Shown one piece after another: positions 10,750 to 30,414 of a stretch of DNA of 31,988 bases. The number at the start of each line of letters is the position of its first letter. Position 1 is the stretch's first letter. The stretch covers positions 1-31,988 of the IMG/VR virus record IMGVR_UViG_3300032282_002606; one strand, written 5' to 3'. The position numbers and the translations under genes were made by a program. A model generated the notes under the pieces. It had not been told where the DNA came from and did not search any database. It was given only the letters and a program-made list of their open reading frames with translations. This DNA comes from a virus.

Positions 10750-13700
10750 ATGGCTACAACTCAAACTAATCAAAAAGTATTCGTTTCTCCGGGTGTTTAT
10801 ACATCAGAAACGGATTTATCGTTCGTTGCTCAAAGTGTGGGGGTTACCACATTGGGACTTGTTGGTGAAACAATCAAAGGTCCTGCATTCGAACCTATTT
10901 TTATAACTAACTATGATGAATTCCAAAATTATTTTGGCGGAACTGAACCAACAAAATTTGTGGATACTCAGATACCAAAATATGAAGCGGCATACATCGC
11001 TAAATCTTACCTACAACAATCAAACCAATTGTTTGTAACAAGAATTCTTGGTTTGTCAGGTTATGATGCGGGTCCTTCTTGGAGCATTAAGGCAATCGCG
11101 AATGTGGAACCTAGAACAATAAACTTGTTAACCGATCCGGGTAATGATTGGTCAGTAACAATAACGGGAGACTTATCCGGTGGTTCTTTTACAGTTTTGT
11201 CGGGGTCTTTTCCGGGTATAGTTGATACTAACATAAATAAACAATATAGGTTAATAAATGGTTCTGTTTCAACACTATCTGATGATTTTAATAATTTTGC
11301 AAGAGGTTTTGTTAACGATCCAAATTCAATGAGTACCACATCAATTATGTATGGTGCAATTTCAAGTAGTGATTACAATAATGTTGTCCAAACTTACAAT
11401 AACGTTATTAACGTATATGGTTGTGACTCTAATGATTTAACATTTAACGATTTGGAATCATCTAGTAATGATCCTTGGTACTACGCTAATTTTGATATAA
11501 CTTCAGGTATTATCTATGACGGATATTCCATATACTTTTATTCTGAAAATTTAACAACAACTTCAACAACATTTGAAATCACATTTACAGGTAAAGAATA
11601 CGCTTTTGATGGTTTGGCATATAGTGCGTATAATGACACAATTATGGCAACTATTCGTTCAAGAGGTATTTCATTATTTACAAATAGTAGTAGTTCAATA
11701 AATCACGGACCAATTTATGAAGTATCAGGAACAACAGATCAATTTGGTACTTTTATTGGTGATGATTTACAAATGATTTGTTCTAATCAATATGAAAGTG
11801 TTAAACAAAATCCTTATAGTACTTTCTTATTATCAGGTTTTACTAAAGATTTAAACGATTTTAAATTTGAAGTTTCTTTATTACCTTCAAGTACGAAATA
11901 TATTCAAAAAGTATTAGGTTCATCTAATTTTGATAAAGATAGATTCCAAGTACCTGTTTTTGTTGAAGAAGCATTTCCAGGTCAACTAGAATATACTTAC
12001 AATAAAGGTTATATTCGTGGATTAAATTGTGAATTAATTGCTTTACCAAGTGCAAGAAGTAGGAACACTCAATCAATTGGGTGGAACTTAGAGAAATATA
12101 CAACACCAATGACACCATTTTTGGTTTCTGAATTAAGAGGTAATAAAGTATATAACTTATTTAGATTTGTTTCAATTTCAGACGGAACAGACGCAAATAC
12201 AGAAATAAAAGTATCAATTGCAAATATCTCTTTTAATAATATGTCATTTGATATATTAGTTAGAAATTTCTATGATACAGATAAAAACCCTGTAGTTATT
12301 GAAAAATACACTAACTGTACTATGAATCCTACATCAAATAGTTTTGTGGGTAAAAAAATAGGTACTGTTAATGGTGAATATGAATTAAAATCTAAATATA
12401 TTATGTTGGAATTAGCAAGTGAATTTCCAACAGATTCATTACCTTGTGGTTTTTATGGATATACTCAGAGAGTTTATGGTAGTTTAGATAACAAATCACC
12501 AATTCCTATTTATAAATCAAAATATAATTATCCCGGTGAACCTTTATACAACCCACCATTTGGTTCAACTGCAGGTGGAGAAAATATAATTTCATCAGGA
12601 GGTGATAATGTTAGAAGAACTTATTTAGGGTTTTCTAGTGAATTTGGAGTTGATGAGTCTTTTTTACAATACAAAGGTAAACAAAATCCGGCAACAAATT
12701 GGGAAACATCAACAGAATCAACAGAATGGAGTTATTTAACAAAAGGTTTTCACATGGATTCCGGTGCAACTGTTGTTAGAATCTCAAATTCGTTTGGTTC
12801 AAGTGGTGAAACTGCATTTGATGTTGGTGTTGCTGATTTTAGAAATGATCCTGAAAGTCAAGAAAATCCGTACTACTTTATTTATTCAAGAAAATTCACA
12901 GTATGTTTTGCAGGTGGATTTGACGGATGGGATATATATAGAAAAGACAGAACAAACAAAGATGAATATCAATTAGGTTCCACAGGTTTCTTAGCAGGAT
13001 TTTATCCATCTTCAAGATATCCAAATGCAACAGGTGACGGAATATTTAAAAGAATTACTATAAATAAAAATACTGTTGATTACGCTAATACTGATTATTA
13101 TGCATATCTTTTAGGTATTCAAACATTCTCTAATCCTGAGGCTGTCAATATAAATGTATTTGCAACAGCAGGTATTGATTATGTGAATAATTCTAATCTT
13201 GTAGAAGCTGCGGTTAATATGATTCAATACTCAAGAGCGGATTCAATTTATATTACAACAACACCTGATTACTCAATGTATACACCAGATAGTACTGATT
13301 CTCAAAACATTATACAACCACAAGAAGCGGTAGATAATTTGGATAACATCGGTTTAGATTCTAACTATACCGCGACATACTATCCTTGGATATTAACAAG
13401 AGATACAGTTAATAATACTCAAATATATCTTCCACCAACCGGTGAAGTTTGTAGAAACTTAGCATTAACTGATAACATTTCATTCCCTTGGTTCGCATCA
13501 GCGGGTTACACAAGAGGTTTGGTTAACTCAATTAAAGCAAGAACAAAACTAACTCAAGAAGATAGAGACATTCTTTATCAAGGAAGAATTAATCCAATTG
13601 CAACTTTCTCTGATGTTGGTACTGTAATTTGGGGTAATAAAACTCTTCAAATATCTGACTCAGCACTTAACAGATTGAATGTTAGAAGATTATTATTACA

Positions 13701-13980
13701 AGCACGTAAGTTAATATCCGCAGTTGCTGTAAGATTATTGTTTGAACAAAACGATCAAGTTGTAAGACAACAATTCTTGGATAGTGTTAACCCAATATTA
13801 GATTCAATCAGAAGAGATAGAGGTTTATATGATTTCCGTGTAACTGTTTCTTCATCTACTGAAGATTTAGATAGAAACACATTAACAGGTAAAATTTATA
13901 TTAAACCAACAAAAGCGTTAGAATTTATAGATATTGAATTCTTAATTACACCTACAGGTGCGTCTTTTGAAAACATTTAA
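10750..13980 (+). CDS. Giant tail sheath protein, T4 gp18-like
   Basis: A 1076-aa contractile sheath protein. The N-terminus has the hallmark SPGVYTSETDLSFVAQS, then GLVGETIKGPAFEP and YIAKSYLQQSNQLFVTRILGLSGYDAG (to about residue 103). The C-terminal ~200 residues carry the conserved sheath core: ATFSDVGTVIWGNKTLQ, LNRLNVRRLLLQARKLISAVA, FEQNDQVVRQQF and the final GKIYIKPTKALEFIDIEF strand that links neighbouring subunits. T4 gp18 is 659 aa, so ~400 extra residues sit in the middle, between the N-terminal handshake region and the conserved core. They are beta-rich and Ser/Asn/Tyr-heavy, as expected of surface-exposed insertion domains. A strong terminator follows the stop. The start ATG has an A/T-rich leader with no Shine-Dalgarno sequence. 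Confidence 0.95.
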   Translation: MATTQTNQKVFVSPGVYTSETDLSFVAQSVGVTTLGLVGETIKGPAFEPIFITNYDEFQNYFGGTEPTKFVDTQIPKYEAAYIAKSYLQQSNQLFVTRILGLSGYDAGPSWSIKAIANVEPRTINLLTDPGNDWSVTITGDLSGGSFTVLSGSFPGIVDTNINKQYRLINGSVSTLSDDFNNFARGFVNDPNSMSTTSIMYGAISSSDYNNVVQTYNNVINVYGCDSNDLTFNDLESSSNDPWYYANFDITSGIIYDGYSIYFYSENLTTTSTTFEITFTGKEYAFDGLAYSAYNDTIMATIRSRGISLFTNSSSSINHGPIYEVSGTTDQFGTFIGDDLQMICSNQYESVKQNPYSTFLLSGFTKDLNDFKFEVSLLPSSTKYIQKVLGSSNFDKDRFQVPVFVEEAFPGQLEYTYNKGYIRGLNCELIALPSARSRNTQSIGWNLEKYTTPMTPFLVSELRGNKVYNLFRFVSISDGTDANTEIKVSIANISFNNMSFDILVRNFYDTDKNPVVIEKYTNCTMNPTSNSFVGKKIGTVNGEYELKSKYIMLELASEFPTDSLPCGFYGYTQRVYGSLDNKSPIPIYKSKYNYPGEPLYNPPFGSTAGGENIISSGGDNVRRTYLGFSSEFGVDESFLQYKGKQNPATNWETSTESTEWSYLTKGFHMDSGATVVRISNSFGSSGETAFDVGVADFRNDPESQENPYYFIYSRKFTVCFAGGFDGWDIYRKDRTNKDEYQLGSTGFLAGFYPSSRYPNATGDGIFKRITINKNTVDYANTDYYAYLLGIQTFSNPEAVNINVFATAGIDYVNNSNLVEAAVNMIQYSRADSIYITTTPDYSMYTPDSTDSQNIIQPQEAVDNLDNIGLDSNYTATYYPWILTRDTVNNTQIYLPPTGEVCRNLALTDNISFPWFASAGYTRGLVNSIKARTKLTQEDRDILYQGRINPIATFSDVGTVIWGNKTLQISDSALNRLNVRRLLLQARKLISAVAVRLLFEQNDQVVRQQFLDSVNPILDSIRRDRGLYDFRVTVSSSTEDLDRNTLTGKIYIKPTKALEFIDIEFLITPTGASFENI

Positions 13981-15060: not shown

Positions 15061-15549
15061 ATGGCTGATTTATTAATGAAAATGCCTTTACCTTATGAAC
15101 CGAAAAGACAAAACCGATTCATTTTAAGGTTTCCTTCAAGTTTAGGTATAAACGAATGGTTTGTTGAATCAACAGTAAGACCACACATACAAATAAAAGA
15201 TGTTGAAATACCTTTTTTAAATACATCAACCTTTGTTGCCGGTAGATTTAACTGGCAGTCAATGCAAGTTGTATTTAGAGACCCAATTGGTCCTTCAGCT
15301 GCACAAGCACTTATGGAATGGGTTCGTTTACACGCAGAATCTGTTACAGGTCGTATGGGATACGCTGCGGGATATAAAAAAGACATTGATTTGGAGATGT
15401 TGGACCCAACCGGAGTTGTTGTTGAGAAATGGATTCTTTATGGAACTTTCTTAACTGATGTTAACTTCAACACATTGAATTATAGTCAAGATGGATTGGC
15501 AACTATCAATGCCACTCTTAGACCTGATAGATGTGTGTTAGTTTATTAA
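15061..15549 (+). CDS. Tail tube protein, T4 gp19-like
   Basis: A 162-aa protein, nearly identical in length to T4 gp19 (163 aa), placed after the sheath gene as expected. The features are those of the gp19/tube fold: NRFILRFPSSLGINEWFVESTVRP, a strand with IKDVEIPFLNTSTFVAGRF, then the helix SAAQALMEWVRLHAESVTGRMGYAAGYKKDIDLEMLDPTG, and a final beta-hairpin region. It polymerises around the tape measure to form the inner tube. Many copies are needed, which fits its two upstream TATTTAT copies and the strong terminator that follows. The ATG at 15061 has an AT-rich leader. Confidence 0.95.
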   Translation: MADLLMKMPLPYEPKRQNRFILRFPSSLGINEWFVESTVRPHIQIKDVEIPFLNTSTFVAGRFNWQSMQVVFRDPIGPSAAQALMEWVRLHAESVTGRMGYAAGYKKDIDLEMLDPTGVVVEKWILYGTFLTDVNFNTLNYSQDGLATINATLRPDRCVLVY

Positions 15550-15627: not shown

Positions 15628-16371
15628 ATGGATACACAATCAAGAGAATATGGACAACAAAATTTAACTCTTCCACATGACGTAGTACCTTTACCATCGG
15701 AAGGACTTTTTTATAAAAATAAGAAAAAATCGGTTAAGGTGGGGTATCTTACAGCATCTGATGAAAATATTTTATTAGGTGGAGGTAATGATATTACAAC
15801 TAACCTAATACGTTCTAAACTATACGAACCCGACATTAAAGTGGAAGATTTATTGGAAGGAGATATTGAAGCGATATTAATTTTTTTAAGGAACACTTCG
15901 TTTGGACCGGAAATGGAAGTTACGTTAACCGATCCTATCACAAAAAAACAATTCAAATCAACAGTACTTTTAGATCAATTATCAATCATTAAAGGACAAG
16001 AACCTGACAATGAAGGTAGTTTTACAATTTTTCTACCTAAAAGTCAAGTTAGTATTAAAATAAAACCTTTAGTTTATAGAGACATACTTGAAATACAAAA
16101 AACACAAGAAAGTTATCCACAAAATAGAATTTTTCCTAAAGTCACCTACAGACTACAAAAAGAAATTATAGAGATAAATGGAAATAGTGATAAAGGTGAA
16201 ATATCTAAATTTATAGAACAAATGCCGATTATGGATTCTAAATTCATAAGAAAATTTATGAATGATAATGAACCAAGATTAGACTTAACAAAAGAAATTA
16301 TTGCCCCTTCAGGAGAAAGACTTACTGTAAACGTTGGTCTAGGGGTGGAGTTTTTTCGTCCTTTCTTCTGA
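15628..16371 (+). CDS. Baseplate hub assembly chaperone, T4 gp26-like (short, zero-frame product)
   Basis: A 247-aa protein. It has the layout of the T4-type baseplate protein family (gp26): PLPSEGLFYKN near the start, a GYLTASDENIL segment, helices with IRSKLY and IEAILIFLRNTSFGPEME, then a beta domain FKSTVLLDQLSII, IKPLVYRDILEIQK and a C-terminal strand NVGLGVEFFRP. The FF-x-P ending is typical of the family. It should help build the hub rather than be a major virion part. Its T8 terminator sits just before the ATG, so its expression may need read-through. Codons 242-243 are TTT TTT followed by CGT, and a second frame opens here: see the frameshift extension. The stop is a TGA at 16369-16371, only five codons after the slippery site. 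Confidence 0.8.
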   Translation: MDTQSREYGQQNLTLPHDVVPLPSEGLFYKNKKKSVKVGYLTASDENILLGGGNDITTNLIRSKLYEPDIKVEDLLEGDIEAILIFLRNTSFGPEMEVTLTDPITKKQFKSTVLLDQLSIIKGQEPDNEGSFTIFLPKSQVSIKIKPLVYRDILEIQKTQESYPQNRIFPKVTYRLQKEIIEINGNSDKGEISKFIEQMPIMDSKFIRKFMNDNEPRLDLTKEIIAPSGERLTVNVGLGVEFFRPFF

Positions 16372-16510
16372 GTATAGAAAAAGTCAAATAGACGAATTTT
16401 ATTATTTGAATACATTAATGAAAGTTAGTTATTCAGATTTTGAAAAAATGCCAATTTTTGTTAGAAAATATTTACTGAATAAATGGATAGAAGATAATAA
16501 GAAGGACTGA
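16358..16510 (+). CDS. Out-of-frame extension of the gp26-like protein, probably by +1 frameshift
   Basis: In the +1 frame relative to the gp26-like gene, 50 codons run from 16358 to a TGA at 16508. They would extend the product from Phe243 to 293 aa. The peptide has a regular helical pattern, with DEFYYLNTLMKVSYSDFEKMP and FVRKYLLNKWIED, of the type seen in the second half of tail assembly chaperones (hydrophobic pairs, SYxDxxxMP, then a basic Arg-x-Tyr/Trp-x-Leu helix). The likely slip is at TTT TTT C: tRNA-Phe in the P site can move one base to TTC, which it reads better. The alternative is a separate 30-codon gene from ATG 16418. The stop codon overlaps the terminator hairpin, and the tape measure gene follows, which is the order seen for G/GT-type chaperone genes. 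Confidence 0.6.
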   Translation, partial: VLSSEYRKSQIDEFYYLNTLMKVSYSDFEKMPIFVRKYLLNKWIEDNKKD

Positions 16511-16550: not shown

Positions 16551-18287
16551 ATGTTAGATGATAAAGAAACAACCGATGAATTAGGTGGTAGAGTTAGTGA
16601 TATATTAAAGTTTGATTTAGAACGTTTTAGAGAAAGTATTGATTCAATGCAAAAAGGTGCAACTGAAATAAACAAAACATTTTTACAAACTAGAGGAAGA
16701 ATTACTGAATTAATGGTTTCTATTGAAGATAGTATACCTGTAATAAATTCTTTAAATGGAAACTTCAATGATGTTTTAAAGACAATGTCGGATATCGCGA
16801 AAGCAACTCAAAGAAATGTAGTGGCATCTACTGAAGATACCGGAAAATTATTTGCCGCAAGTCAATTGTTAGGACTTGAGGTAAAAGACATTGTTGAAAA
16901 TTTTAGAGATATAGGTGTTCAGTTTCCTCAAATAGGTAAACAACTTGAGGAGTCAATAAATTATATTCAAAGTGTTGGTGCGAATGCTGGACAAGTAATG
17001 AGAACTGTTATGTCTAGTATGGATAAAATGAATGAATTTTCATTTCAAAATGGTGTACAAGGATTAACAAAGATGGCAACTCAAGCATCTTTAATGAACT
17101 ATGATATGAAGGAAACCTTTAGAATTGCGGATAAAGGAATTGATCCTGAAGGTGCGATTGAATTGGCGAATACATTTCAAAGACTTGGTGTTGCCGCTGG
17201 TGATTTAGTTAATCCGTTTCAAATAATGAATCAATCTTTAACTAACCCCGAAGGATTACAAAATAATATAATTAACATGACAAAACAATTTGCCGTGTTT
17301 GATGAAAAAACAAAATCATTTAAAATAAGTGAACAAGGTATTTTAACTTTGAGACAATTTAGTAAAGAAACTAATACAAGTTATGATAATTTGGCAAAAA
17401 CAGCGTTAGCGGCTGCAGACTTAGACGAAAGACTCCGACAACTAAATCCTCAAATAAATTTTGAAAATGAAGAAGATAAACAATATTTGATGAATATTGC
17501 TGATATGAAGAAGGATGGTAAGTATGAAGTTACATTAAAAGATGGTGTTAAAAAAGAATTACAAAATCTTAACCAAGAAGAATTTGACGAATTAATTAAA
17601 CAACAAAAAACGGGTCCTAAATCTTTAGAGGATATTGCAAAAAGTCAATTAACAATGACTGAGTTATCGACAGGTTACCTTGAATCAATTAAGAATACAA
17701 TAGTTGGGGGGGTAATATCAACACCTTTATTTACTCAAAATGTTGAAGGATTAAGAAATTTAATTTCGGGACTTGGGGAATCCGCAATTAAAAATTTACC
17801 AAAAACCGATGAAACAAGAAATACTTTAGTTGAATTTACAAATCAAGCAATGAAATTATTGAAAGATAAACCAAATACTGAACAATATACAAGAGATTTA
17901 GATATCTTAAAAGGTATGAAAGATTCTTTTTTACAAAGTGGTAATGATAGATTAAAACAATTTGCTATAGATTTTAATGAAAAAATAGGCGGAATTTCAC
18001 AAATTGAAAAATTAGTTAAAACTAATGTGGCTCAACCACTAACTGATTTTTTAGGTAAACCAAGTAACTATGGTAAAACGGCAACTGGTGTTGAGGAATC
18101 AAGAAATGTAAATTTAGGTGGTGGATTTACAATTAAAATTGCAACAGAACCTGGATCAACTGTGTCACAACAACAATTAGATAGTATTTTTAATAGTACT
18201 TCATTTAAAGAATTTATAATGTCAATTTCAAATTCACAGAATCCAAATAATAAGTCACCAATAAATGTAGTTTATACAAGTCGTTAA
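16551..18287 (+). CDS. Tail tape-measure-like protein
   Basis: A 578-aa protein, close to T4 gp29 (590 aa). It starts with a charged helical region, then long helical stretches with heptad-like spacing (residues ~15-180), then an alanine/glutamine-rich helical core with FQRLGVAAGDLVNPFQIMNQ and ETNTSYDNLAKTALAAADLDERL. This combination and its place directly behind the chaperone-like gene point to a tape measure. No enzymatic domain such as a lysozyme is visible, and no hydrophobic membrane-like segment is obvious. The C-terminus (~510-578) is Asn/Ser-rich and beta-like. The ATG follows a TATTTAT element and has no Shine-Dalgarno sequence. A hub-associated role is the main alternative. Confidence 0.7.
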   Translation: MLDDKETTDELGGRVSDILKFDLERFRESIDSMQKGATEINKTFLQTRGRITELMVSIEDSIPVINSLNGNFNDVLKTMSDIAKATQRNVVASTEDTGKLFAASQLLGLEVKDIVENFRDIGVQFPQIGKQLEESINYIQSVGANAGQVMRTVMSSMDKMNEFSFQNGVQGLTKMATQASLMNYDMKETFRIADKGIDPEGAIELANTFQRLGVAAGDLVNPFQIMNQSLTNPEGLQNNIINMTKQFAVFDEKTKSFKISEQGILTLRQFSKETNTSYDNLAKTALAAADLDERLRQLNPQINFENEEDKQYLMNIADMKKDGKYEVTLKDGVKKELQNLNQEEFDELIKQQKTGPKSLEDIAKSQLTMTELSTGYLESIKNTIVGGVISTPLFTQNVEGLRNLISGLGESAIKNLPKTDETRNTLVEFTNQAMKLLKDKPNTEQYTRDLDILKGMKDSFLQSGNDRLKQFAIDFNEKIGGISQIEKLVKTNVAQPLTDFLGKPSNYGKTATGVEESRNVNLGGGFTIKIATEPGSTVSQQQLDSIFNSTSFKEFIMSISNSQNPNNKSPINVVYTSR

Positions 18288-18330: not shown

Positions 18331-21300
18331 ATGGGTAATAGTCCTTTAGATTTTCCATCTACCGAATCGTTTAGGGTAAAGTTAAATAGAAGAAATTTAG
18401 CACCTTATCCTAAATCACCTAACCGAGCACAACCCCCAATTAATTATGAGGTTGTTTTACGGGATTATGCTGTCGTTGATTCACCTGATGTTTTAATAGA
18501 TGAACCCATATTAGCAAATGAATTATACTCATTAAATAGATATGGACAAGACGGTGGGTATGATATTGTTGCTGATCCAAATAGAATATTAAATACCCAA
18601 TCAAACTTAGGGGAATATGGGTACCAAGATGCTAATATAATACAAGAAGCTCCTTATGAGGCGAATAAACCCGGTGGATGGAAAGTGTTGAATGCTTACG
18701 GAGACGGGACAACAGGTATATCAGATTCGGCGGTAGACATATCAAGATTAGATATTTTAGTAATAAATCAAGGAAGAACAGGTAATTCACAACCATATCC
18801 TACAACTTTTGTCCCATCATCATACACACCTTTAAGTATATTATTAAGTGACGCACCTTCGGGTACTAATGGTTCTCTTAGTCAAGATTCTTTTATTGCA
18901 CGATTAGGTGCTAAGGTATTGAGGAAAGAGTTCCAAGATAGAGTTGCTAGACAACTTCTTAGACAAACAATTGGAAGAGCCAATATATTAAATCCGAATA
19001 GTGGTACAGGTGTATTAGGGGTGATAACAGGTTCGGTACCATTATTAGAACCTAATTATTCAATTACAATTCCTTCTAACCCGATAACCGCATCCGCACA
19101 ATTTGCTTTAAGCTTAGCAGGAAGTTATATACCGGTATCACCTATACCGGGTTCGTACTTTGATAGTTCAATTAATGCCGGACAACCAACAACACTTCAA
19201 CAAATTACCAATGCATTTACAAATACAGGTGTTGGTAATTTTTTATCAAGTTTATTAGGACCACCAAAAAATGGTTCACAATTATTTTTAAATAATACCG
19301 GGGCAGGACAGAAATCATTGTTATTTAAAAATTTAGATTATAACAAATTTAAACCCGGATATGAAAGAAATTTTATTGATAGATTAGGTGGGGTATTATT
19401 TGGTACGAGTGCTAATAATAGTAACTACTATATCGGTTCAACAAGTTCGGAACCATCAAGAGTTTTTTCACCAAGTAATGATTTACCTGTAGATGAATTT
19501 AATAGGGAAATACAGTCACCTGTTTATGGACCTTCTGAAATGGCTCAACTATATGAAGGACCTAGCCAAAGTATTAAATTGGGTGCAAATGGACCTACTT
19601 ATAGTGATGGGGGAGGTATTGAAGGTGGATTTACATGGGTATCACCTAAATATAAGGGAAATGCGGGGTATAAAGTCGGTGTTGGGGGTGAGAATATCAA
19701 ACAAGACTCAGACTTCAAGGAAGCGTCTTATAATTCGACAGAATCAACAAATTTTGAATTTAAAGGTGGATCAATATTAGATGATACCCAAAGGATAATT
19801 AAAAGTCAACCTAGTGGTGGTAGAAGATTAAAACATGTAGGTAATGCTATGGATCAGGTTAGTAAAGTGTTCAATGATGGATATAAAGAATTAACCAAAG
19901 GTTCAAGAGTGTTATCGTATGTTGGAGATATTGGACAAGAAAAAGGTGCGGAATATTGTAGAGTATTTGCCAAAGATACCCCTTATTTACAATATAATGA
20001 TTTACAAAAAACTGATGGTATTACTACAGAAGGAAGAAGATTTAGTTATTCGGTATTTGATAAGACATATAATTTAAATATGTATCCAAATAAACAGGAA
20101 GGGGGACAAGATTCAACCAATCTAATTGGGGGAGGAGAGAACGGATATGCAAAAAAATATATGTTTTCTATTGAAAATCTTTCATGGAGAACATCAAATA
20201 AACCGGGGTATACATGGGCAGATTTACCAATTTGTGAAAGAGGGCCTAATCATGGTAGAGTAATGTGGTTCCCCCCATATGGATTAACATTTACTGAAGG
20301 TAGTAGTGCAAGTTGGAAATCAACAGATTTTATAGGTAGACCTGAACCAATTTATACTTATAGTAATACAAATAGAACAGGTACTTTATCTTGGAAAATA
20401 GTTGTGGATCATCCATCTGCATTAAATGTTATTGTAAATAAAGTTTTAAATAATGAAACAAATAAAACAAGGGTTGATAGTATATTAGAATCTTTTTTTG
20501 CTGGATGTAGAAAGTATGACTTATACGATTTGGCAAAAAAATATTACATGATTAAAACAAGTGATTTAACTCAAATACAAACTGAGTTAAATAACAAAAC
20601 ATTATCAACTGAACAAATAAAATATGTTGATAAAACTGTTAACAATGGTGGTCAGGTTGTTAAAACACCTGAAGTAGAACCCACAAATCCGTTCACAAAA
20701 TATGAACAATTAGGGTTTTATTTTGATAATGATATACCCAAAAAAGATTCGACAGTAACATCGTTTGATGACTATTATACACCATATATTGGGGAAAAAA
20801 CTGTTTATATTAATAATAATGCAATAACAGGACAATTTTTTTCGGACATAATTGAAAACAATTTCCAAGAGTTAATTAACTTGGCAAACGATTTAGTTAA
20901 TGAATATACTAAAAATCCAAATATATTAGTAACTATTAGATTAGTAGGAAGTGCGTCCGCACCGGCAACAAAAACATATAATGTTGCTTTATCACAAAGA
21001 AGAATTGATTCGGTTAGAAACTGGTTTAAAACATATCCTATTTTATCACAAGCAATCGGTCCTGACAATAACGGTAATTTAAAAATAATGGGATCTCCAC
21101 AAGGAGAACAAACTGTGGTAACGCCAAGAGGACAAAAAGTATTTAATACTTATACTTGTTCTGATCAAGATAATAAATCAACATTATCTCACGAAATATA
21201 TACAATAAATGCGATGGCGTGTAGGCGAGTTGCGATTGCGTCAATTGAAGCGAAAATTGGAGGAGTTCCTGCAAGTGAGTCAAAAACACCCGATAATTTT

Positions 21301-23292
21301 GTAACAACAACAACTGGTACCGTAGAAAAAGGTACTAAAACAGTAACAGAAGAAGTTCAAAGAACCGTTTTAAGGGATAATATAACAAAAAGAGTGTTAA
21401 GATCTTTATTATCAGAATGTGATTATTTTGAAACAATTAAAGAAGAAACACCATTAGTGTTTGACAACTTAAAAGATAAACTTAAATTCTTTCACCCATC
21501 GTTCCACTCAATGACACCGGAAGGTTTAAATTCAAGATTAACTTTCTTACAACAGTGTATGAGACCTGGTGATACAATACCTGTAGTTAAAACTATTGAT
21601 GGTAAAGACCAATTAGAATATAATAACGCAACTAATACGGCGTTTGGTGCACCACCGGTACTCGTATTAAGAGTGGGTGATTTTTATAATACAAAAATTA
21701 TACCGGATAATTTAAGTTTAACATATGAAAGTTTGGATATAAATCCTGAAGGTATTGGAATTCAACCTATGATAGCAAATGTTACATTAACATTTAAATT
21801 TGTTGGTGGAAGTGGATTAAAAGAAGCGGTTGATAAAATCCAAAACGGACTTTCATTTAATTTTTATGCTAACACAGAAATCTATGATGATAGAGCGGAT
21901 GTTACAGATGATAGTTATAAAGTTCTAGATAAGAATTTTTTAGATGCTATTGGGTTTGAAGTACCACCACCAACAGTAAATCAAGCAACAAACGACAACG
22001 GACAAAATAATAATAATACAATTGGAACAATAAAAACAAAAAATCCTACACAAACAGGAGAAACAGGGACAATTATATATAAAGATTTTATGGTTTATCT
22101 TGTTAATTCGTCCCAAGAATACTTCCAAAACATTATTAATAAATCAAAAGAAGTTAACACACAATATAATAATGCTGTATTACAAGTTTGGTCTTCGGAA
22201 AGAAAATATGTTGATGGTTATTTCCAATTAGATATTACTAATAAAGTAAAATTGTTTGGAAAACCTAATGATGTTGATAAAAAAGTTGATAAGATTATAA
22301 AAAAATTCGCAGACGATATTGATTCAAATAATGAATATTTAATAAAATGGATTGATAGTCGTAATTTCACCTCGAAAGTAAAAAGAAAATTAAAAGATAA
22401 TTACATTAATTATATTAATACTAAGAAAAATACATTTACAACTGGTTTAAATACAATAACACAAAATATTGTATTACAAGAACAAAATTATATTTCTAAG
22501 ATAGCAAGAGCAAATGTGATAACATTTGGTAGATTAGCTGAATCAAGAACGGACGGATTACAACAAAAAAATGGGTTTGTTGTGGTATATATAACAACAC
22601 CAACAAATAAAGTTACGGATAAAACTAAGGCAAATACTTTAGATGAATTAGAAGACGATATAAGAATTATAAGAACTTCAATTAACGATTATTACGATAA
22701 AATTAATAATCCACAAACTTTTATTTCTGACTCTCAGAATTATTCGGGTATTTTAACTTATGGTGGAAGTAATTCTAAAATTATTAGTGGAAATGTTTTT
22801 AATCCGTTTACTGATGGGTTTAGTGATGTTTCTTTACAAAGAAGTTATTTCCTTTTAAGTAATGATATTTTAGATTCAAAAAAGTACCAAATTTTTAAAC
22901 AAAGTTTAATTGGGGATATTATAAATAATCCTTCTATAATAGGTAATCAAAGAACTGATTTAGAACAACAATTTGATGAATGTTGGAATACTGTTAAACC
23001 TATATTTGAAAAAGAAAATAAAGTAACTAATGATTTTTTAAGTGAAATGGAAAAAAATTATTTAAAAGATTTTGTAAAGTATACACCATTTAATACCGCC
23101 AAAGAATATGAATTTGATTATACAGTATATTCAAAAGATGTTACACCAATTGAAAAACCATTAGAAAAACCTAGAAAAGAATACATCGAATCGTTGGGTT
23201 ATTCTACAAATAAGAATACTAATGATGAATGGTCTAGTGAAACCACAGTTTCCGGACATAAGATAATAATATCTAAAGTAAAACTTAACTAA
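18331..23292 (+). CDS. Giant tail/baseplate protein with tube-like domains and an OmpA-like domain
   Basis: A 1653-aa protein. Residues ~1-600 are Ser/Asn/Gly-rich with few helices. Residues ~605-745 have a tube-like module (YMFSIENLSWRT, GRVMWFPPYGLTF, FIGRPEPIYTY, then WKIVVDHPSALN). Residues ~820-980 resemble an OmpA/MotB peptidoglycan-binding domain: LVGSASAPATKTYN, then LSQRRIDSVRNWF at 887-899, with Arg890/Arg891. The Asp that usually precedes (for example D271 in A. baumannii OmpA) appears to be replaced by Ala/Ser, so muropeptide binding is uncertain. Residues ~1053-1185 hold a second tube/tube-initiator-like module with FHPSFHSMTPEGLNSR, LVLRVGDFYNTKI and FVGGSGLKEAV. The remaining ~430 residues are charged and helical. 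A T4 gp48/gp54-like tube-cap or hub role fits its place between tape measure and gp53-like genes. The stop and next start overlap (TAATG). Confidence 0.75.
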   Translation: MGNSPLDFPSTESFRVKLNRRNLAPYPKSPNRAQPPINYEVVLRDYAVVDSPDVLIDEPILANELYSLNRYGQDGGYDIVADPNRILNTQSNLGEYGYQDANIIQEAPYEANKPGGWKVLNAYGDGTTGISDSAVDISRLDILVINQGRTGNSQPYPTTFVPSSYTPLSILLSDAPSGTNGSLSQDSFIARLGAKVLRKEFQDRVARQLLRQTIGRANILNPNSGTGVLGVITGSVPLLEPNYSITIPSNPITASAQFALSLAGSYIPVSPIPGSYFDSSINAGQPTTLQQITNAFTNTGVGNFLSSLLGPPKNGSQLFLNNTGAGQKSLLFKNLDYNKFKPGYERNFIDRLGGVLFGTSANNSNYYIGSTSSEPSRVFSPSNDLPVDEFNREIQSPVYGPSEMAQLYEGPSQSIKLGANGPTYSDGGGIEGGFTWVSPKYKGNAGYKVGVGGENIKQDSDFKEASYNSTESTNFEFKGGSILDDTQRIIKSQPSGGRRLKHVGNAMDQVSKVFNDGYKELTKGSRVLSYVGDIGQEKGAEYCRVFAKDTPYLQYNDLQKTDGITTEGRRFSYSVFDKTYNLNMYPNKQEGGQDSTNLIGGGENGYAKKYMFSIENLSWRTSNKPGYTWADLPICERGPNHGRVMWFPPYGLTFTEGSSASWKSTDFIGRPEPIYTYSNTNRTGTLSWKIVVDHPSALNVIVNKVLNNETNKTRVDSILESFFAGCRKYDLYDLAKKYYMIKTSDLTQIQTELNNKTLSTEQIKYVDKTVNNGGQVVKTPEVEPTNPFTKYEQLGFYFDNDIPKKDSTVTSFDDYYTPYIGEKTVYINNNAITGQFFSDIIENNFQELINLANDLVNEYTKNPNILVTIRLVGSASAPATKTYNVALSQRRIDSVRNWFKTYPILSQAIGPDNNGNLKIMGSPQGEQTVVTPRGQKVFNTYTCSDQDNKSTLSHEIYTINAMACRRVAIASIEAKIGGVPASESKTPDNFVTTTTGTVEKGTKTVTEEVQRTVLRDNITKRVLRSLLSECDYFETIKEETPLVFDNLKDKLKFFHPSFHSMTPEGLNSRLTFLQQCMRPGDTIPVVKTIDGKDQLEYNNATNTAFGAPPVLVLRVGDFYNTKIIPDNLSLTYESLDINPEGIGIQPMIANVTLTFKFVGGSGLKEAVDKIQNGLSFNFYANTEIYDDRADVTDDSYKVLDKNFLDAIGFEVPPPTVNQATNDNGQNNNNTIGTIKTKNPTQTGETGTIIYKDFMVYLVNSSQEYFQNIINKSKEVNTQYNNAVLQVWSSERKYVDGYFQLDITNKVKLFGKPNDVDKKVDKIIKKFADDIDSNNEYLIKWIDSRNFTSKVKRKLKDNYINYINTKKNTFTTGLNTITQNIVLQEQNYISKIARANVITFGRLAESRTDGLQQKNGFVVVYITTPTNKVTDKTKANTLDELEDDIRIIRTSINDYYDKINNPQTFISDSQNYSGILTYGGSNSKIISGNVFNPFTDGFSDVSLQRSYFLLSNDILDSKKYQIFKQSLIGDIINNPSIIGNQRTDLEQQFDECWNTVKPIFEKENKVTNDFLSEMEKNYLKDFVKYTPFNTAKEYEFDYTVYSKDVTPIEKPLEKPRKEYIESLGYSTNKNTNDEWSSETTVSGHKIIISKVKLN

Positions 23293-23615
23293 TGTCTATA
23301 CAATACTTTAATAGATATCGAAATTTTTTAATAAATGGTGAACAAACTGTTGTTCCTTACGTGCAATTACCACAAAAAACGACAGATAAAACTTATATTT
23401 ATAAAGTCGGTAAAAGTAGGTTGGATAAAGTTTCACAAGAATATTATACAACACCTTTCTTTGGGTGGTTAATTTTACAAGCAAATCCTAAATTTGGTGG
23501 GTTAGAAAATAATATTACTGATGGTTCAATCTTGATTATTCCATATCCTTTATTAACATCATTACAGGACTATAATAGTGCTTTAGAAAATTATTTTTAT
23601 TATTATGGCAGATAA
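23292..23615 (+). CDS. Baseplate protein with LysM-like fold, T4 gp53-like
   Basis: A 107-aa protein. The core is a LysM-type module: TYIYKVGKSRLDKVSQEYYTTPFFGWLILQANPKFGGLENNITDGSILIIPYP (residues ~34-85), with the usual Tyr-x-Val-x-x-Gly/Ser then a Gly-Trp-Leu-Ile-Leu helix and an Ile-x-Pro closing strand. T4 gp53 uses the same fold to join wedges. In many myophages a small LysM-like protein near the hub genes plays the same part. It starts in a TAATG overlap with the stop of the upstream giant gene and ends 11 bases inside the downstream one, so it is strongly coupled. It is too short to be a lysin and has no secretion signal. Confidence 0.8.
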   Translation: MSIQYFNRYRNFLINGEQTVVPYVQLPQKTTDKTYIYKVGKSRLDKVSQEYYTTPFFGWLILQANPKFGGLENNITDGSILIIPYPLLTSLQDYNSALENYFYYYGR

Positions 23616-26600
23616 TTTAAGGGTGGATAACAATGGAGATATATATGCATTCGCATGTAATAATATTATTGTTGTTGATCCCAATAAAACAATTAAAGAT
23701 GGTAAAATTTCGGAAAGATTGGTTGATCATGAGAATCTTGTTATGTTCGCTAATCTTGAGGCTGAACTTACGCCAAGAACAAAATTATCGGTAGGGGTGG
23801 ATGGTACAGACGGAATTAGAACAATTTCAATTGCGAAGGTTAATTTTTTAAAAGGGACATCAAACGGAGAGTTTACAACTGGTTATTATGATGAACTTAC
23901 AGGACTAAATACAACAAATAAAAAAGGAACTAATCAACAAAAAGAAGAGTACGTAAATCAAACTAATTCAACAGGTTATGTAAATAAACAAGTTTTAACT
24001 GACGGTACTCAAAAAACAATAGATAATGGATTGTTAGGTATTACACAAATAACGGTTTCGGTATCAACTTCATTTATTCCTAAAGTAACCATTAATTTAG
24101 AAGATGTTCAAGGAAGAGCATTATTTCAATTAGGTGAAAATTCACCATATGCTGCGTTTTTTAATTTGCCATATCCCCCATTTTTTTTAACACTTAAAGG
24201 GTATTATGGACAGGCAATAAAATATCAATTGTATTTGAAAAGTTTTAATGCCAGTTTTAATTCTTTTAGTGGTAATTATCAAATCAGTTTAGAATTACTT
24301 GGTTATAAATTTACAATATTGAATGAAATATTTATGAATCATTTGTTGGCGACACCTCATATGTATTCAACAAAATTTGATATTTCACAACCAACAAATG
24401 GACAACAATTATCACAGACACTCATTGGACCTTCAAATCAACAAAATGCTGTTATTAATCAAAATCAAAATAGTGATAACGTAGTTGTCGATCAATTGGT
24501 TATTACAAAAGGATATCAAAAAATTCAAGAAGTTTATAGTGAATATAAAAAGAAGAAACTTATTCCGGAAAATTTTCCGGAATTAACACTTTCTCAATTA
24601 ATGAATAAATTAAATTCATTAGAACAAACCATTGTAAATAACTACTCTAAAGTTGATTTAGAACCACTTACAGATATAAGAAATTATAAAAAAATATTGG
24701 AAGAATATTATAATGAAGTTTATAATTCATCAGGTTCTTGGTTTTCAAAATATATTGATCAAAAACCATATATTTTGAAAACAACTGGGGATAGGGTTTT
24801 CTATTTGAAAACTGCAAATACTTTGACACCAAAAGATATAGGTGAGGCGTTAGTAAAAAATCAAGAAGCAAAAACAAAATTAGATGGACTTATAAATTTA
24901 TATAATGGAAAATTATTATCAAACAAAACATTAGGTAAATCAATTGTTAATAATATTACTATTGATTCTTTAACAGGTACAACAAACATAAATGACATTG
25001 ATTGGGAAAGAACAACAATTGAACAAACAAGAATACCAAACCCAAGTGAACAACAAATTAGTGATTTAAAGGCACAGGCATCAACTTATTTATTTTTACA
25101 ATCATTTAAAGGAAAACCTTTTCCATATAAAGAGGGAGATAAACCTTTAACTATAGAACAACCAACTTTTTTTATTTTTGGTGGAGAAAAAAGATTTAAG
25201 AACGAAATCTATAGGATGGAAAAAGAATCAAATAAAAAATTATCCGAAGTTGAGACAGAATTAACAAAAAAAATATCGGTTAAAATAGAAGACGCAAACA
25301 CTGGTTTGGGATTTAAACCAACCGTTAGAAATGTCATTGCGGTTATAATGGCTTCGGCGGAAGGTTTTATTAGATTAATGGATGATGTTCATACAAAGGC
25401 GTGGGATGTTAAATATGATCCAATAAGAAAAAATATCATATCAGATAGTAATCTAACCGCACCAAGTTCTGATTCTAAATTTAATGTACAAATAACCGCA
25501 AACGCTCAATTGGGTGATAATAATTTATCATATTCTCAAACACCTGTTTATCCGTGGCCTCAATTCTTTAAAGAAAATTTAGATGATAAGAAAGGTAAAT
25601 ACCAACTAAGATATTTGGGTGATCCTGAACTAATAGACTCAACTAAAGGATACATGTATGACAAATGGCCTGAAGTAGAGTTTGTTGAAGAATATACTAA
25701 AGGATTGGCAAGAAAAGATAATTTACCTGAATCAAGTACACCTACCGATAATGATGGTAGTACGTTTTTGTTAAATATAAACGCCATAGAATTTCCGGAG
25801 AAAGGATATGCGTATTCATTAAAAGAAGAAATAAAATATTTTTATGAAATATTTGAAAGACAATTAGTTACGTCTTATTATACTGGACTTTCTAGATTAG
25901 AAAATAATTTATTTGAAAATATTTTGAACACAGTTGTTGAGATAGAGTCAAAAAATATTGTTAATAGTTTAGGTAAAAATAATCCATACCTTTCAATGAA
26001 ACTTAAGAATTATGGATTAACATCGGCAACATATATAGATTGGTTAAAAAGTATTTCTGAAAATGGTTCTTATCAAGATTTTATAAGAGATTTTTTTATA
26101 ACTTTTTATTTAAAAAGTATAACAAACAATCCGTCAAGTATTTTAAGTTTAAATGAAGTTGGTAAAGAATCATCAACAAAACCTGAAAACAAAAGTGTTT
26201 TAATTAATATATTAAAAGATACTAAAACTAATGAACCAAATGTTACCGATATATATCCATTCACAAATCAAGGGTGGAGAAACGACAATTTAATATCGAT
26301 AAACTATAATCAAGGCGATAATGTTTTTAATACTACAAATACACTAACAATTTTTGGTAGTAGAAATGTTATATCTAATTTTTATGATTTATATGATTAT
26401 AAAAAAAATAGACCTGTAACTAATTTTTCATATAAAAATGTTACTAATCCTTTAGCTAACACCAGTAGTTCAAACTACAATTCTCAGTTTAATTTTTTTC
26501 AAACATTATTTTCAAGTAGAGTACCCACCGAATTTATACCAACAGAAGGTTATTGTTATTTTAGTACACCAAGTGGGAATATTCCGGTTAAAACAACAAC

Positions 26601-29600
26601 ATCAATTTTAAATACACCATTTTTTATTAATTCAATTACAAAAGGTGTTGAAGATTGGAAAAATAAAAATCAATATCCGTTTATTAGATCGGCATACCTT
26701 TTTTTAAATTCATTACCATTAATTTCTTTGAAAGAAAAATATAAATCAATTGGGGTTAATTTAAACGAACTTGATTATATGTTTGCATCTCTTAAGAAAT
26801 TTGGAGGAATACATAAGATACCATATGCTTGGATTCTTAAAATAGGTTCAATTTGGTATAGGTATAAAAATTATGTTAATACAGGTAATGATTTTTTAAA
26901 TGATGTTTGGGGAAATTTTGATTATGTTAAGAATTTTGATCCAGTAACTCAGAGTAATACCAAAAATTATGTTTTTAACTTCAATGGACAAACAGGTAAA
27001 ACAATTCAATTAGAAAATATAACAACAAATACCACAACAATTAATAGTGGGTTTTACCCAAAATTAATTAGTGATTTTAATTATTTTTATAATGGTTATG
27101 ATTTGTATACATCATATACAGATAGTGAAATTCAAACTAGTTTAAATAACGGATTAAAATTATATAATTTTTCAAATTCTAACTATAATGCATTACAGAA
27201 TGGTTCTCAAAATGTGTCAATGACAACTTGGTCTTTATTGGTACCTTCTGATATTAAACAAACTAATGTTGGTACTAATTGTGGGACAACAACAATATCA
27301 CCACTTGGTGAATATTATGTATTACCTTCTTTTGGAAGTGAAGATAATCAATCATTGTCTTCTGTTGCGGATATAACAAGAAATGTAATTAATGGTGTTA
27401 CTATAAATGGTAATCAAGAGGTTTATAACGGTTCTGTTAGATTGTTATGGAATTCACCAAATTATGGATACTTCGATGTTAATCAAATTAAAAAACCTTC
27501 ATTTGATTCGTATCTTAATAAGATAGAAGGTAACCCTGAAACTTTATCTCCATTTAAACTTTTAAATGATAATTCGTATTCTAAAATAGATGAAATTTTT
27601 TCTGTTTTTGGTAAGGATGTGTTAGATAAATTTGAAACTGAATTTTTAAATTTTTGTAAACCAGTAAACGAATTAAACGCCGGCGGAAGTAGTGTGGAGA
27701 CACCGTATACTTCTTCAGGTGATCCTAATTTTATATATAAAAATTTCCAATTATTTTTTAGAAGTTTAATGTTGGTTAGAGGGCCTTTAACAAATCAGAC
27801 AGATGAGAATTTCTTTAAAGAAACAATAAATTATCAATTTGGAAATTTTGTAACTCAAATATCTAATTTCTTAGAATATGATATTATATTCAGATTTGGA
27901 AATCCAAGTTATTATGATAGAAGAATATTTGATTCGTTTTTATCGTTTAACTCAACTGTTAAAAAAGTTGCAGATTCAATAAACTTTGGTGAGTATGTTG
28001 CGAATAGTTTACCAACAAATGGTGGATCAACAACATTAGCACAATCAAAAGTTAATTATCCTAACGAATGGAATAGTTTATTATTAAATGTTGGGTTTTC
28101 CACAATACCTGATTTAGTTTACAAAGACAGTGGTTCTTATATTACAGATTTTTTTGTTGATAATAATATTAAATTCACAGTTGAAAATATTAATATATTA
28201 TCACCACTAATTAAAATGTATGCAACACAAAAACTAAATAATTCGGTAATAAGTACAAATAGTTTTAAAACTCAAATTTCTGATTATTTAAACAAATGTG
28301 AAAATCTACAAAATAGATCTTTAGATGGTATATTAAATAGAATTAGAAAAGACTTACCGGATTATCAAGAATTACCTGAAAAAGTCCCTTTACCTCCAAT
28401 AACAGATGGACAACAATCTAATGTAGAAAAGTATGAAATATTTAAGGCATTAAATGATAAGTGGATATCTGGTATTAATATTAAAGATAAAACTTTATTA
28501 GAAGATATTCTTTTTTTAGATAAAGCATCAAGAAATATTGGTGAAACAATATATTTGGATATATTCTCATTAAGAGATACATTAAAAAGTTTTACAAGAG
28601 GTGTTGATACTAGTGTTTATAATTTTATTGCAACAGTACTAATTAGAAATAATTTTACAATAATGAACTTACCTTCTTATGTCAATTATTATAATTTACA
28701 AGAAGTTGACGGAATAAGTGAACCAAAAACAGATAGTCCCTATGATTTTGCAAATAGTATGTGGGGTACTCATTTGAATGTTGATTATAGAAAATCAAGC
28801 CCAAAATTAGTTTGTTTCTATGCAGGAAAACCGGCAAGTAATATTAAACTTCAGGATTCTAAAACTTATTTATTCAAAGATGACGGGTTTGAAATGAATT
28901 GTGAGGGACATCCGTTATTAGAAAATCAAACAAATAAATCAAATGTTGAATTTTCGTTATCTAATAGGTGTGTAGGGTTTAATGTTGATATTGGGATTAG
29001 AAATCAAAACATATTTTCTAATTTTACGGTTTCACAGGATAACGGAAAAGCCACTTCTGAAACAATTCAAATTCAATTAGATATAATAAATCAAGCGGGA
29101 GGTAAACAGACAAGTACTCAAAATGTTGGGTTATATAATTTGTATAAAAATAGGAGTTATCAATCTAAAATAGTTGCATTAGGTAATGCGATGATACAAC
29201 CTGTTATGTATTTTAATTTGAATCATGTCCCAATGTTTAACGGAGCTTATATGATAACAGATGTTACACATACAATAACACCCGGGACATTTCAAACAGC
29301 TTTTACCGGAGTTAGACAAGGGTACTTTGATTTACCTTCAATCGATAATTATTTACAAAGTATTAATGAAAATTTATTAACAAAAATTCAAGAAGAGATT
29401 CTAAATAAAAAAGATGAAACACCTAAGACAAGTACGACACTAAACTTAAATATTAGTAAAGTTGATTCAAACACAACTTCAGCCGCTATAGATACATGTA
29501 AAAATTCCGTAAATGTTGTTTATTTAAATAATAAGTTCGAATCAATTCCAAATGTAAAAACAAGTTTGAATGAAAAAGATTTTAAAAATTTAATATCTAA

Positions 29601-30414
29601 TAATACATCAGGAAAAGGTGGTGCAGATGAACCAATATTACAAGCATCTGTTTATGGAATTTGTTACCTACTTTCCCATAAAGAAAATAAATTTATTGGT
29701 TATAATAATAATTATGCTCAATTAAATCTTACGTATGATTTTACACCGACATATGAACCATATTTTGATAAAAAATATTCTTGTGTTGTTGAAAAAGATA
29801 TGTCAACCCCATTCGCGGTTTTTACTTCAAATGAAAATTTTATAAATTTCATGATATCAAGGATTTTACCAAGAATACCTTCAATCAAAAAAGAAGGTTT
29901 ATTACAATATTTTGTAAGGTTTTGGCCTAAAGAAAATGAAATTACTCCAACTATGTTTAATTTGATTAAAAATACAACATATAAGAAAGAACAAAATACT
30001 TTGAGGAAGGGATTAAATTCGGCAAAAACCAATGGTATTAATGTTGGGGATGTTGAATTATTATTGTTTGGTACAGATTCTTTGGTTACCCCCACTGCGG
30101 CAACAACAACCTCTAACAACAGTTCAGTGTCCTCACCGTCACAATCTAATCCTAACTGTAATCCACCAACAATTACATCTGTTGTACCTATAACCGGAAC
30201 AACCAATTATGCAACACCAATAACAATTAGTGGTACCAATTTATATCATATAAGACAGGTAACGGTTAATAATATACCTTGTACAATAAATCAATCAACA
30301 TCAAACGAAACTAAAATTAATGTGGTTGTACCACCAAATGTTAATGGACAAATAGTGGTATCAACCGATCATGGTACTACGGTATATACCTCATCACAAT
30401 TTACTTATATATAA
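23605..30414 (+). CDS. Giant baseplate hub-like protein ending in an IPT/TIG domain
   Basis: A 2269-aa protein, the largest here. Residues ~142-246 carry a hub/wedge-like beta domain (ITQITVSVSTSFIPKVTINLED, GENSPYAAFFNLPYPPFFLTLKGYYGQ). A later module (~1737-1935) contains CFYAGKPASN, ALGNAMIQPVMYFNLNHVPMF and YMITDVTHTITPGTFQTAF, which resemble hub proteins of the gp27/gpD type. Residues ~1948-2152 form a separate domain with KFIGYNNNYAQLNL and PFAVFTSNENFINF, a layout seen in putative cell-wall-cleaving or accessory domains of phage tail proteins; I cannot identify catalytic residues. After a Ser/Thr/Asn linker, residues ~2182-2269 are a clear IPT/TIG fold (PTITSVVPITG, TITISGTNL-like, final FTYI). 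Codon use and composition match neighbouring tail genes. It overlaps the gp53-like stop. The middle region (~250-1700) has no assignable domain. Confidence 0.8.
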   Translation: MADNLRVDNNGDIYAFACNNIIVVDPNKTIKDGKISERLVDHENLVMFANLEAELTPRTKLSVGVDGTDGIRTISIAKVNFLKGTSNGEFTTGYYDELTGLNTTNKKGTNQQKEEYVNQTNSTGYVNKQVLTDGTQKTIDNGLLGITQITVSVSTSFIPKVTINLEDVQGRALFQLGENSPYAAFFNLPYPPFFLTLKGYYGQAIKYQLYLKSFNASFNSFSGNYQISLELLGYKFTILNEIFMNHLLATPHMYSTKFDISQPTNGQQLSQTLIGPSNQQNAVINQNQNSDNVVVDQLVITKGYQKIQEVYSEYKKKKLIPENFPELTLSQLMNKLNSLEQTIVNNYSKVDLEPLTDIRNYKKILEEYYNEVYNSSGSWFSKYIDQKPYILKTTGDRVFYLKTANTLTPKDIGEALVKNQEAKTKLDGLINLYNGKLLSNKTLGKSIVNNITIDSLTGTTNINDIDWERTTIEQTRIPNPSEQQISDLKAQASTYLFLQSFKGKPFPYKEGDKPLTIEQPTFFIFGGEKRFKNEIYRMEKESNKKLSEVETELTKKISVKIEDANTGLGFKPTVRNVIAVIMASAEGFIRLMDDVHTKAWDVKYDPIRKNIISDSNLTAPSSDSKFNVQITANAQLGDNNLSYSQTPVYPWPQFFKENLDDKKGKYQLRYLGDPELIDSTKGYMYDKWPEVEFVEEYTKGLARKDNLPESSTPTDNDGSTFLLNINAIEFPEKGYAYSLKEEIKYFYEIFERQLVTSYYTGLSRLENNLFENILNTVVEIESKNIVNSLGKNNPYLSMKLKNYGLTSATYIDWLKSISENGSYQDFIRDFFITFYLKSITNNPSSILSLNEVGKESSTKPENKSVLINILKDTKTNEPNVTDIYPFTNQGWRNDNLISINYNQGDNVFNTTNTLTIFGSRNVISNFYDLYDYKKNRPVTNFSYKNVTNPLANTSSSNYNSQFNFFQTLFSSRVPTEFIPTEGYCYFSTPSGNIPVKTTTSILNTPFFINSITKGVEDWKNKNQYPFIRSAYLFLNSLPLISLKEKYKSIGVNLNELDYMFASLKKFGGIHKIPYAWILKIGSIWYRYKNYVNTGNDFLNDVWGNFDYVKNFDPVTQSNTKNYVFNFNGQTGKTIQLENITTNTTTINSGFYPKLISDFNYFYNGYDLYTSYTDSEIQTSLNNGLKLYNFSNSNYNALQNGSQNVSMTTWSLLVPSDIKQTNVGTNCGTTTISPLGEYYVLPSFGSEDNQSLSSVADITRNVINGVTINGNQEVYNGSVRLLWNSPNYGYFDVNQIKKPSFDSYLNKIEGNPETLSPFKLLNDNSYSKIDEIFSVFGKDVLDKFETEFLNFCKPVNELNAGGSSVETPYTSSGDPNFIYKNFQLFFRSLMLVRGPLTNQTDENFFKETINYQFGNFVTQISNFLEYDIIFRFGNPSYYDRRIFDSFLSFNSTVKKVADSINFGEYVANSLPTNGGSTTLAQSKVNYPNEWNSLLLNVGFSTIPDLVYKDSGSYITDFFVDNNIKFTVENINILSPLIKMYATQKLNNSVISTNSFKTQISDYLNKCENLQNRSLDGILNRIRKDLPDYQELPEKVPLPPITDGQQSNVEKYEIFKALNDKWISGINIKDKTLLEDILFLDKASRNIGETIYLDIFSLRDTLKSFTRGVDTSVYNFIATVLIRNNFTIMNLPSYVNYYNLQEVDGISEPKTDSPYDFANSMWGTHLNVDYRKSSPKLVCFYAGKPASNIKLQDSKTYLFKDDGFEMNCEGHPLLENQTNKSNVEFSLSNRCVGFNVDIGIRNQNIFSNFTVSQDNGKATSETIQIQLDIINQAGGKQTSTQNVGLYNLYKNRSYQSKIVALGNAMIQPVMYFNLNHVPMFNGAYMITDVTHTITPGTFQTAFTGVRQGYFDLPSIDNYLQSINENLLTKIQEEILNKKDETPKTSTTLNLNISKVDSNTTSAAIDTCKNSVNVVYLNNKFESIPNVKTSLNEKDFKNLISNNTSGKGGADEPILQASVYGICYLLSHKENKFIGYNNNYAQLNLTYDFTPTYEPYFDKKYSCVVEKDMSTPFAVFTSNENFINFMISRILPRIPSIKKEGLLQYFVRFWPKENEITPTMFNLIKNTTYKKEQNTLRKGLNSAKTNGINVGDVELLLFGTDSLVTPTAATTTSNNSSVSSPSQSNPNCNPPTITSVVPITGTTNYATPITISGTNLYHIRQVTVNNIPCTINQSTSNETKINVVVPPNVNGQIVVSTDHGTTVYTSSQFTYI

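Follow-up and report, generated by a model that had tools for sequence, protein, structure and literature searches.

Probable programmed +1 ribosomal frameshifting in a T4 gp26-like tail assembly chaperone gene of an environmental phage

Organization of the locus

The window, that is, the whole stretch of 31,988 bases analysed here, is a virus contig. The chaperone gene sits between the tail tube gene and a probable tape measure gene, and has a conserved slip site shortly before its 3' end. The genes of the locus are as follows.

15061-15549, + strand: tail tube protein, gp19-like, gene preceding the chaperone (phrog_4542, E=6e-23)
15628-16371, + strand: zero-frame open reading frame, T4 gp26-like tail assembly chaperone, short form (TAC-N), 247 aa (PF12322, phrog_150)
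16551-18287, + strand: probable tape measure protein, 578 aa, gene following the chaperone (position as in phages immuto, LIS04 and SP-15)

In profile searches the product of 15628-16371 scores 38.7 bits against PF12322 (cut-off 24.5) and matches phrog_150 with E=4.9e-15. It is a member of the T4 gp26/gp51 chaperone family. Each of 15 long records out of 15 contains one gp26-like gene, counted with a profile that is weak on T4 itself (gp26 is found at E=0.1 and gp51 is missed) and that a strongly diverged second gene of the T4 type could escape. The product of 16551-18287 matches PF10145 weakly, with E=0.013, under the cut-off; its position agrees with the earlier note, which had placed these genes right before the tape measure.

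Shine-Dalgarno (SD) sequences are absent from the start codons of the window. The AT-rich genes, the lack of SD sequences and the likeness to a Flavobacterium phage suggest a host in the Bacteroidota. tRNA and Rfam scans of the whole window gave no matches. Three other large reading frames lie in the window. A 1076-aa tail sheath protein is encoded at 10750-13980, with sheath homology spanning only residues ~780-1076. After the tape measure gene, 18331-23292 encodes a 1653-aa protein with a weak OmpA-like stretch at ~857-907 (E=0.011, below the cut-off), and the largest frame of the window, 2269 aa, occupies 23605-30414.

The shift site and the overlapping +1 frame

The main frame ends with GGG GTG GAG TTT TTT CGT CCT TTC TTC TGA, so that the short form has the C-terminus FFRPFF. 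The elements of the overlap are listed below.

16340-16342, + strand: +1-frame TAG, 11 nt 5' of the site, which bars an upstream start for the extension
16351-16359, + strand: shift site TTT_TTT_CGT, of the form TTY_TTT_CGN that is invariant in clade A (the window's clade); P-site UUU at 16354-16356 (+1 onto UUC), A-site CGT at 16357-16359
16369-16371, + strand: zero-frame stop TGA, end of the short form; 5-8 codons from the start of the site in relatives, position varying
16358-16510, + strand: putative extension in the +1 frame, 50 aa closed by TGA 16508-16510; it would form the C-terminal end of the long product (TAC-NC; pN/pS, phrog_150 alignment)

The +1 frame is open between TAG 16340-16342 and TGA 16508-16510, and its translation from GTC 16358 is VLSSEYRKSQIDEFYYLNTLMKVSYSDFEKMPIFVRKYLLNKWIEDNKKD (50 aa). 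After the TAG it contains no ATG, GTG or TTG until TTG 16406. These coordinates, a main frame stopping at TGA 16369 and a +1 frame open to TGA 16508, are as the earlier note gave them; its statement that the stop lies five codons after TTT TTT CGT needs correction, the stop being three codons past CGT. The −1 frame shuts ~20 nt past the stop, and the extension, lying in the +1 frame, does not fit a −1 shift on an X_XXY_YYZ heptamer.

Conservation of the site among relatives

A scan of viral contigs yielded 316 relatives, of which the best 80 were compared; these closest contigs are ~69-73% identical over 247 aa. All 80 of these best relatives carry TTT TTT CGY (C/G)CT TTC TTC followed by a homologous +1 extension, so the comparison of the site that the earlier note had proposed turns out in favor of its reading. 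Two more scans brought the total to 168 distinct site contexts, and at 166 of them the extension lies in the +1 frame. This comparison establishes the site and the frame of the fusion, and supports the earlier proposal of a programmed +1 frameshift in a gp26-like chaperone. A sequencing indel in the T run, another check that had been called for, is ruled out by more than 160 distinct relatives, some of them with the run broken.

UUU_CGN accounts for 104 of the 166 +1 sites, comprising all of clade A and Streptococcus phage GXN1. The other types are UUU_UGG (27 sites) and UUU_CUU/CUA (33 sites), with single cases of UUU_CAC in Bacillus phage SP-15 and UUU_AGU in Listeria phage LIS04. The +1 arrangement is also present in Flavobacterium phage immuto, in Microcystis phage Mel-JY01 and in huge phage LR756508, as well as in nine of 11 distinct LR756508-like contigs. 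A scan of genome contigs added two loci in metagenome-assembled genomes, each with TTT TTT TGG and a +1 extension. At all sites except that of LIS04, tRNA-Phe could re-pair from UUU onto UUC (or UUU). In LIS04 re-pairing of UUU_AGU in the +1 direction (UUA) would be poor, which counts against the proposed mechanism. In the public annotation of immuto and SP-15 the extension was missed, and a truncated hub protein is accompanied by a 'hypothetical protein' of 36-39 aa; these GenBank entries (L085 4860-4970 and L086 4740-4859) seem to represent pieces of the frameshifted extension.

Across 101 clade-A sequences TTY_TTT_CGN is invariant, with the third base of CGN almost free. CGN codons make up 34 of the 343 Arg codons in the genes of the window and ~11% in the clade-A chaperone genes, where CGG and CGC account for 0.5% and 0.2% of Arg codons, respectively. 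At the A position of the site every clade-A sequence has CGN, and both CGG and CGC are common there.

Coding evidence for the +1 frame

In the 101 clade-A sequences variation peaks at zero-frame third positions (1.15-1.29 bits) upstream of the site and at +1-frame third positions (1.16-1.47 bits) downstream of it. Over the extension, aggregate pN/pS is 0.21 (0.208) in the +1 frame, compared with values of 1.57 and 0.82 for the zero and −1 frames, respectively; 5' of the site it is 0.25 for the zero frame and 1.11 for the +1 frame. By these measures the extension is coding sequence. From TTT_CGN to the zero-frame stop both frames are constrained, as expected if both products are made.

In 20 sequences, including the window, there is no ATG, GTG or TTG from the upstream +1 stop to ten codons into the extension, and the +1 frame of six is shut 5 nt ahead of the site. 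The zero-frame stop lies two codons later in nine clade-A sequences that retain the extension, one of them with ATA for the preceding TTC. In the TTCTTTCGN and TTTCTTTGG relatives the T run is cut to three T and the extension is still in the +1 frame.

An RNA element 5' of the site

Two nested helices are predicted immediately upstream of the site.

16303-16308, + strand: outer stem, 5' arm, GCCCCU (pairing kept in 97.9% of the cells of 72 aligned sequences; L127 and L133 with a compensatory change)
16341-16346, + strand: outer stem, 3' arm, AGGGGU, ending 4 nt before TTTTTTC (synonymous-shuffle control)
16319-16324, + strand: inner stem, 5' arm (inner helix 85.4% of cells paired)
16334-16339, + strand: inner stem, 3' arm (four inner-helix pairs in which both bases change)

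Counted from the first T of the site, the clade-A pairing is −48 to −43 with −10 to −5 and −32 to −27 with −17 to −12. For the whole element 91.7% of cells are paired in 72 sequences, versus 35-60% when the pairing is slid. None of 500 shuffles matched its covariation score, and its alifold energy is −9.36 versus −0.62 (sd 0.12) in synonymous-codon shuffles. Wobble positions −46 and −7 hardly vary; the sole departures, in relatives L127 and L133, change jointly from C-G to A-U. The stem is conserved in the clade and is a candidate, and probable, stimulator of the +1 shift. Taken alone the window sequence has an unexceptional fold, which 12% of synonymous shuffles equal. The element was found in the window's clade only, and in the immuto-like clade it is weak or missing; because of this absence the 5' stem is not required everywhere. 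No conserved RNA structure was found downstream of the site.

Two other candidate elements were rejected. An SD-like role for the GGGG of the 3' arm is disfavored, as the starts lack SD sequences and in L127 and L133 the altered wobble base still pairs with the 5' arm. A complementarity of 9 nt between TCAGGAGAA and TTCTTCTGA spanning the site, spotted by eye, fails in L125, L127, L164 and L166. The Gly codon GGA at 16312-16314, in the loop of the element, resembles the stem wobbles in that its third base is invariant in 70 of 72 sequences and differs only in L127 and L133.

Identity of the extension

The phrog_150 score of the chaperone rises from 56.7 bits without the extension to 61.8 bits with it, and the fused protein (P0003) aligns to positions 11-263 of the 282 of phrog_150, reaching the gp51-specific region. 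Extension profiles built for clade A and clade B match each other with E=7e-10. By these profile alignments the extension corresponds to the C-terminus of T4 gp51, a C-terminal helical domain. An hhalign comparison of the extension profile with the T4 gp51 C-terminus alone was not significant, so the case for homology is made by the phrog_150 alignment and by the match between the clade profiles. AlphaFold2 predicts the fused form of relative L130 with pLDDT 86 and the extension as folded helices, and Foldseek groups this model with viral 'baseplate hub assembly' proteins. The lengthened profile match and the helical model agree with the earlier suggestion that the extension resembles the second part of tail assembly chaperones. 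A fold search of the PDB gave no match, single-sequence AlphaFold2 prediction of the window's own fused protein reached a pLDDT of 30, and tblastn with the extension alone found no matches among annotated phages.

In KVP40 and cyanophage Bellamy the same domain is a separate small reading frame (phrog_634). In the cyanophage-type loci it lies in the −1 frame and has an ATG in 78 of 78 cases. At these loci (L280-L359) a TTTTTTCG stretch ends the chaperone gene, and since the −1 extension has its own ATG, frameshifting and initiation are indistinguishable there. A −1-frame extension also follows a TTTTTTA/TTTTTTC T run in XacN1 (L088 4700-5000), Atu_ph07 (L092 3700-4000) and RAS14 (L094 3700-3990). 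These sequences suggest that the chaperones of the three phages may use −1 frameshifting.

Proposed mechanism and alternative explanations

The locus very probably yields two forms of the tail chaperone by programmed +1 ribosomal frameshifting, as judged from the comparative sequence data. The majority of ribosomes would terminate at TGA 16369 and give the 247-aa short form. Others would stall when the rare Arg codon CGU enters the A site, with tRNA-Phe paired to UUU (16354-16356) in the P site. This tRNA would then slip one base forward, from UUU to UUC, and reading would continue with GUC CUU UCU, giving a long form of 293 aa with 243 shared and 50 new residues. The hairpin would refold behind the ribosome and probably favor the forward slip, if its force acts in the direction we suppose. 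In tail assembly both forms presumably cover the tape measure and bring in the tube protein, like gpG and gpGT of lambda.

Conservation, the lack of usable starts, displaced stops and broken T runs together exclude, for practical purposes, a sequencing indel, separate initiation and a shift at the stop. It is very unlikely that the extension is a small gene of its own, with its own start or reached by reinitiation after the TGA. Many clade-A sequences do have a +1-frame ATG 20 nt upstream of the site that might in principle serve as a start in those sequences, and distant relatives (cyanophages, KVP40 and LR756511) carry the domain as a reading frame with ATG. That arrangement, which the earlier note had named as an alternative, is confined to those branches and is not that of the window's lineage. 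The upstream ATG falls where AAT GTT encodes N-V in the zero frame, there is no +1 constraint upstream (pN/pS 1.1), and the sequences with no usable start or with the +1 frame closed just before the site argue against it as well. The least probable of the alternatives, with hardly any weight, is a shift at the stop itself on TTC_TGA, as in the RF2 gene. All sequences have a zero-frame stop near the site, but the stop is not the slip point, because it is displaced by two codons in the nine clade-A sequences described above; the extension is kept there, also where TTC is ATA. In addition, tRNA-Phe re-pairs poorly on UCU, and an SD-like element of the RF2 type should have no effect where starts are without SD, as in the window.

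Two further explanations make use of the T run, and we infer their exclusion from its break in the TTCTTTCGN and TTTCTTTGG relatives and, for a −2 shift, from codon-anticodon pairing. A Mu-like −2 shift would reach the identical final frame, and six consecutive T are available at the site. Yet TTC_TTT_CGN (L113, L149 and GXN1) and TTT_CTT should permit +1 and not −2 re-pairing, and the influenza UUU_CGN site gave a +1 and not a −2 product by mass spectrometry (PMC3498833); a −2 shift is slightly less likely still than a separate gene. Slippage of RNA polymerase, with the fusion made from an altered mRNA, has a lower probability again. Most sequences have the T6 run, and upstream hairpins can help such slippage, as in the Roseiflexus IS case, but relatives with three-T runs keep the +1 extension, and the conserved rare Arg codon family in the A site fits translation and not transcription. 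Programmed +1 frameshifting on UUU_CGN is the reading we retain.

Comparison with known systems

As in lambda gpG/gpGT, the gene lies directly before the tape measure, and a short and a C-terminally extended form would arise from a frameshift close to the end of the first reading frame. The protein family is different, according to the profile searches here, and so is the slip site; the shift is −1 in lambda (−2 in Mu) and +1 here, and the RNA structure lies 3' of the site there and 5' here. The earlier remark that most tail chaperone frameshifts are −1 (−2 in Mu) agrees with the known cases. One very likely +1 case is a tail gene of the haloarchaeal myovirus HSTV-2 (PMC5009743), which is likewise a myovirus tail chaperone, with an archaeal host. 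The chaperones of Vandenendeviridae and Andersonviridae (GTTTTT; PMC12846349) share a poly-T site at the TAC-N end and a conserved extension, but shift in the −1 direction and belong to another lineage. T4 gp26 and gp51 belong to the same family (PF12322/phrog_150), and the extension aligns colinearly with the C-terminal end of the gp51-type profile; T4 has two genes without a frameshift, whereas in the window one gene would give both forms by a +1 shift. For chaperones of T4-like phages a non-frameshift mechanism has been proposed, as it is summarized in a later paper (Vladimirov, Gautam & Davidson 2022, via PMC10885494). Cyanophages have a −1-frame reading frame where the window's lineage would use a +1 shift.

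The closest likeness in the site is to PA-X of influenza A, for which a +1 shift at UCC_UUU_CGU was shown by mass spectrometry; related sites of insect and plant viruses also favor CGN in the A site (PMC3498833). Common to both are a P-site UUU followed by an A-site CGN, the +1 direction and overlapping conserved frames. PA-X differs in its eukaryotic ribosome, low efficiency and lack of a known stimulator, and the two sites are convergent, not homologous. In E. coli, the codon pairs UUU-CGG and UUU-CGU were reportedly used by Schwartz and Curran. Frameshifting at UUU-pyrimidine in that bacterium was their subject, as described in a paper citing them (Schwartz & Curran 1997, cited in PMC3789692). 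The RF2 gene (prfB) is unlike the present case: the A-site codon here is CGN and not a stop, the stop is displaced in relatives, and the window's starts have no SD.

In the SARS coronavirus, a stem located 4 nt 5' of the shift site is reported to weaken the −1 shift and to stimulate +1 in synthetic constructs (PMC5009743). The spacing is the same as here; there the stem dampens a natural −1 shift, and here it precedes a natural +1 site. We give an even chance to a broader reading of the locus as a natural +1 shift with a hairpin stimulator behind a bacterial ribosome, 4 nt before UUU_CGN, in an apparently non-SD host. It would be the first natural case of the forward push reported in the synthetic coronavirus constructs, in a family that would have switched among −1, +1, a separate gene and a duplicated fused gene. 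The invariant CGN, the match to the PA-X site, the 5' stem and the homology to the gp51 C-terminus go beyond the earlier note. In the literature searched, whose coverage is incomplete, we found no conserved gp26-family +1 shift that combines a site of the PA-X type with a 5' stem.

Implications

Frameshifted tail chaperones are already known, mostly with −1 shifts; a +1 shift at a site of the PA-X type, preceded by a 5' stem, would be a variant new to the literature searched. To our knowledge, general rules for +1 slippage are lacking, and the invariant UUU_CGN with its free third base, together with the conserved 5' stem, offers a clean natural system for it. In the PA-X type of site, DNA phages of bacteria and RNA viruses of eukaryotes would have converged. 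In a large and widespread group of environmental phages, uncultivated and with T4-like tails, a +1 shift is very probably at work in the T4-type chaperone family, and how the ratio of short to long form is set in T4-type chaperones becomes directly testable.
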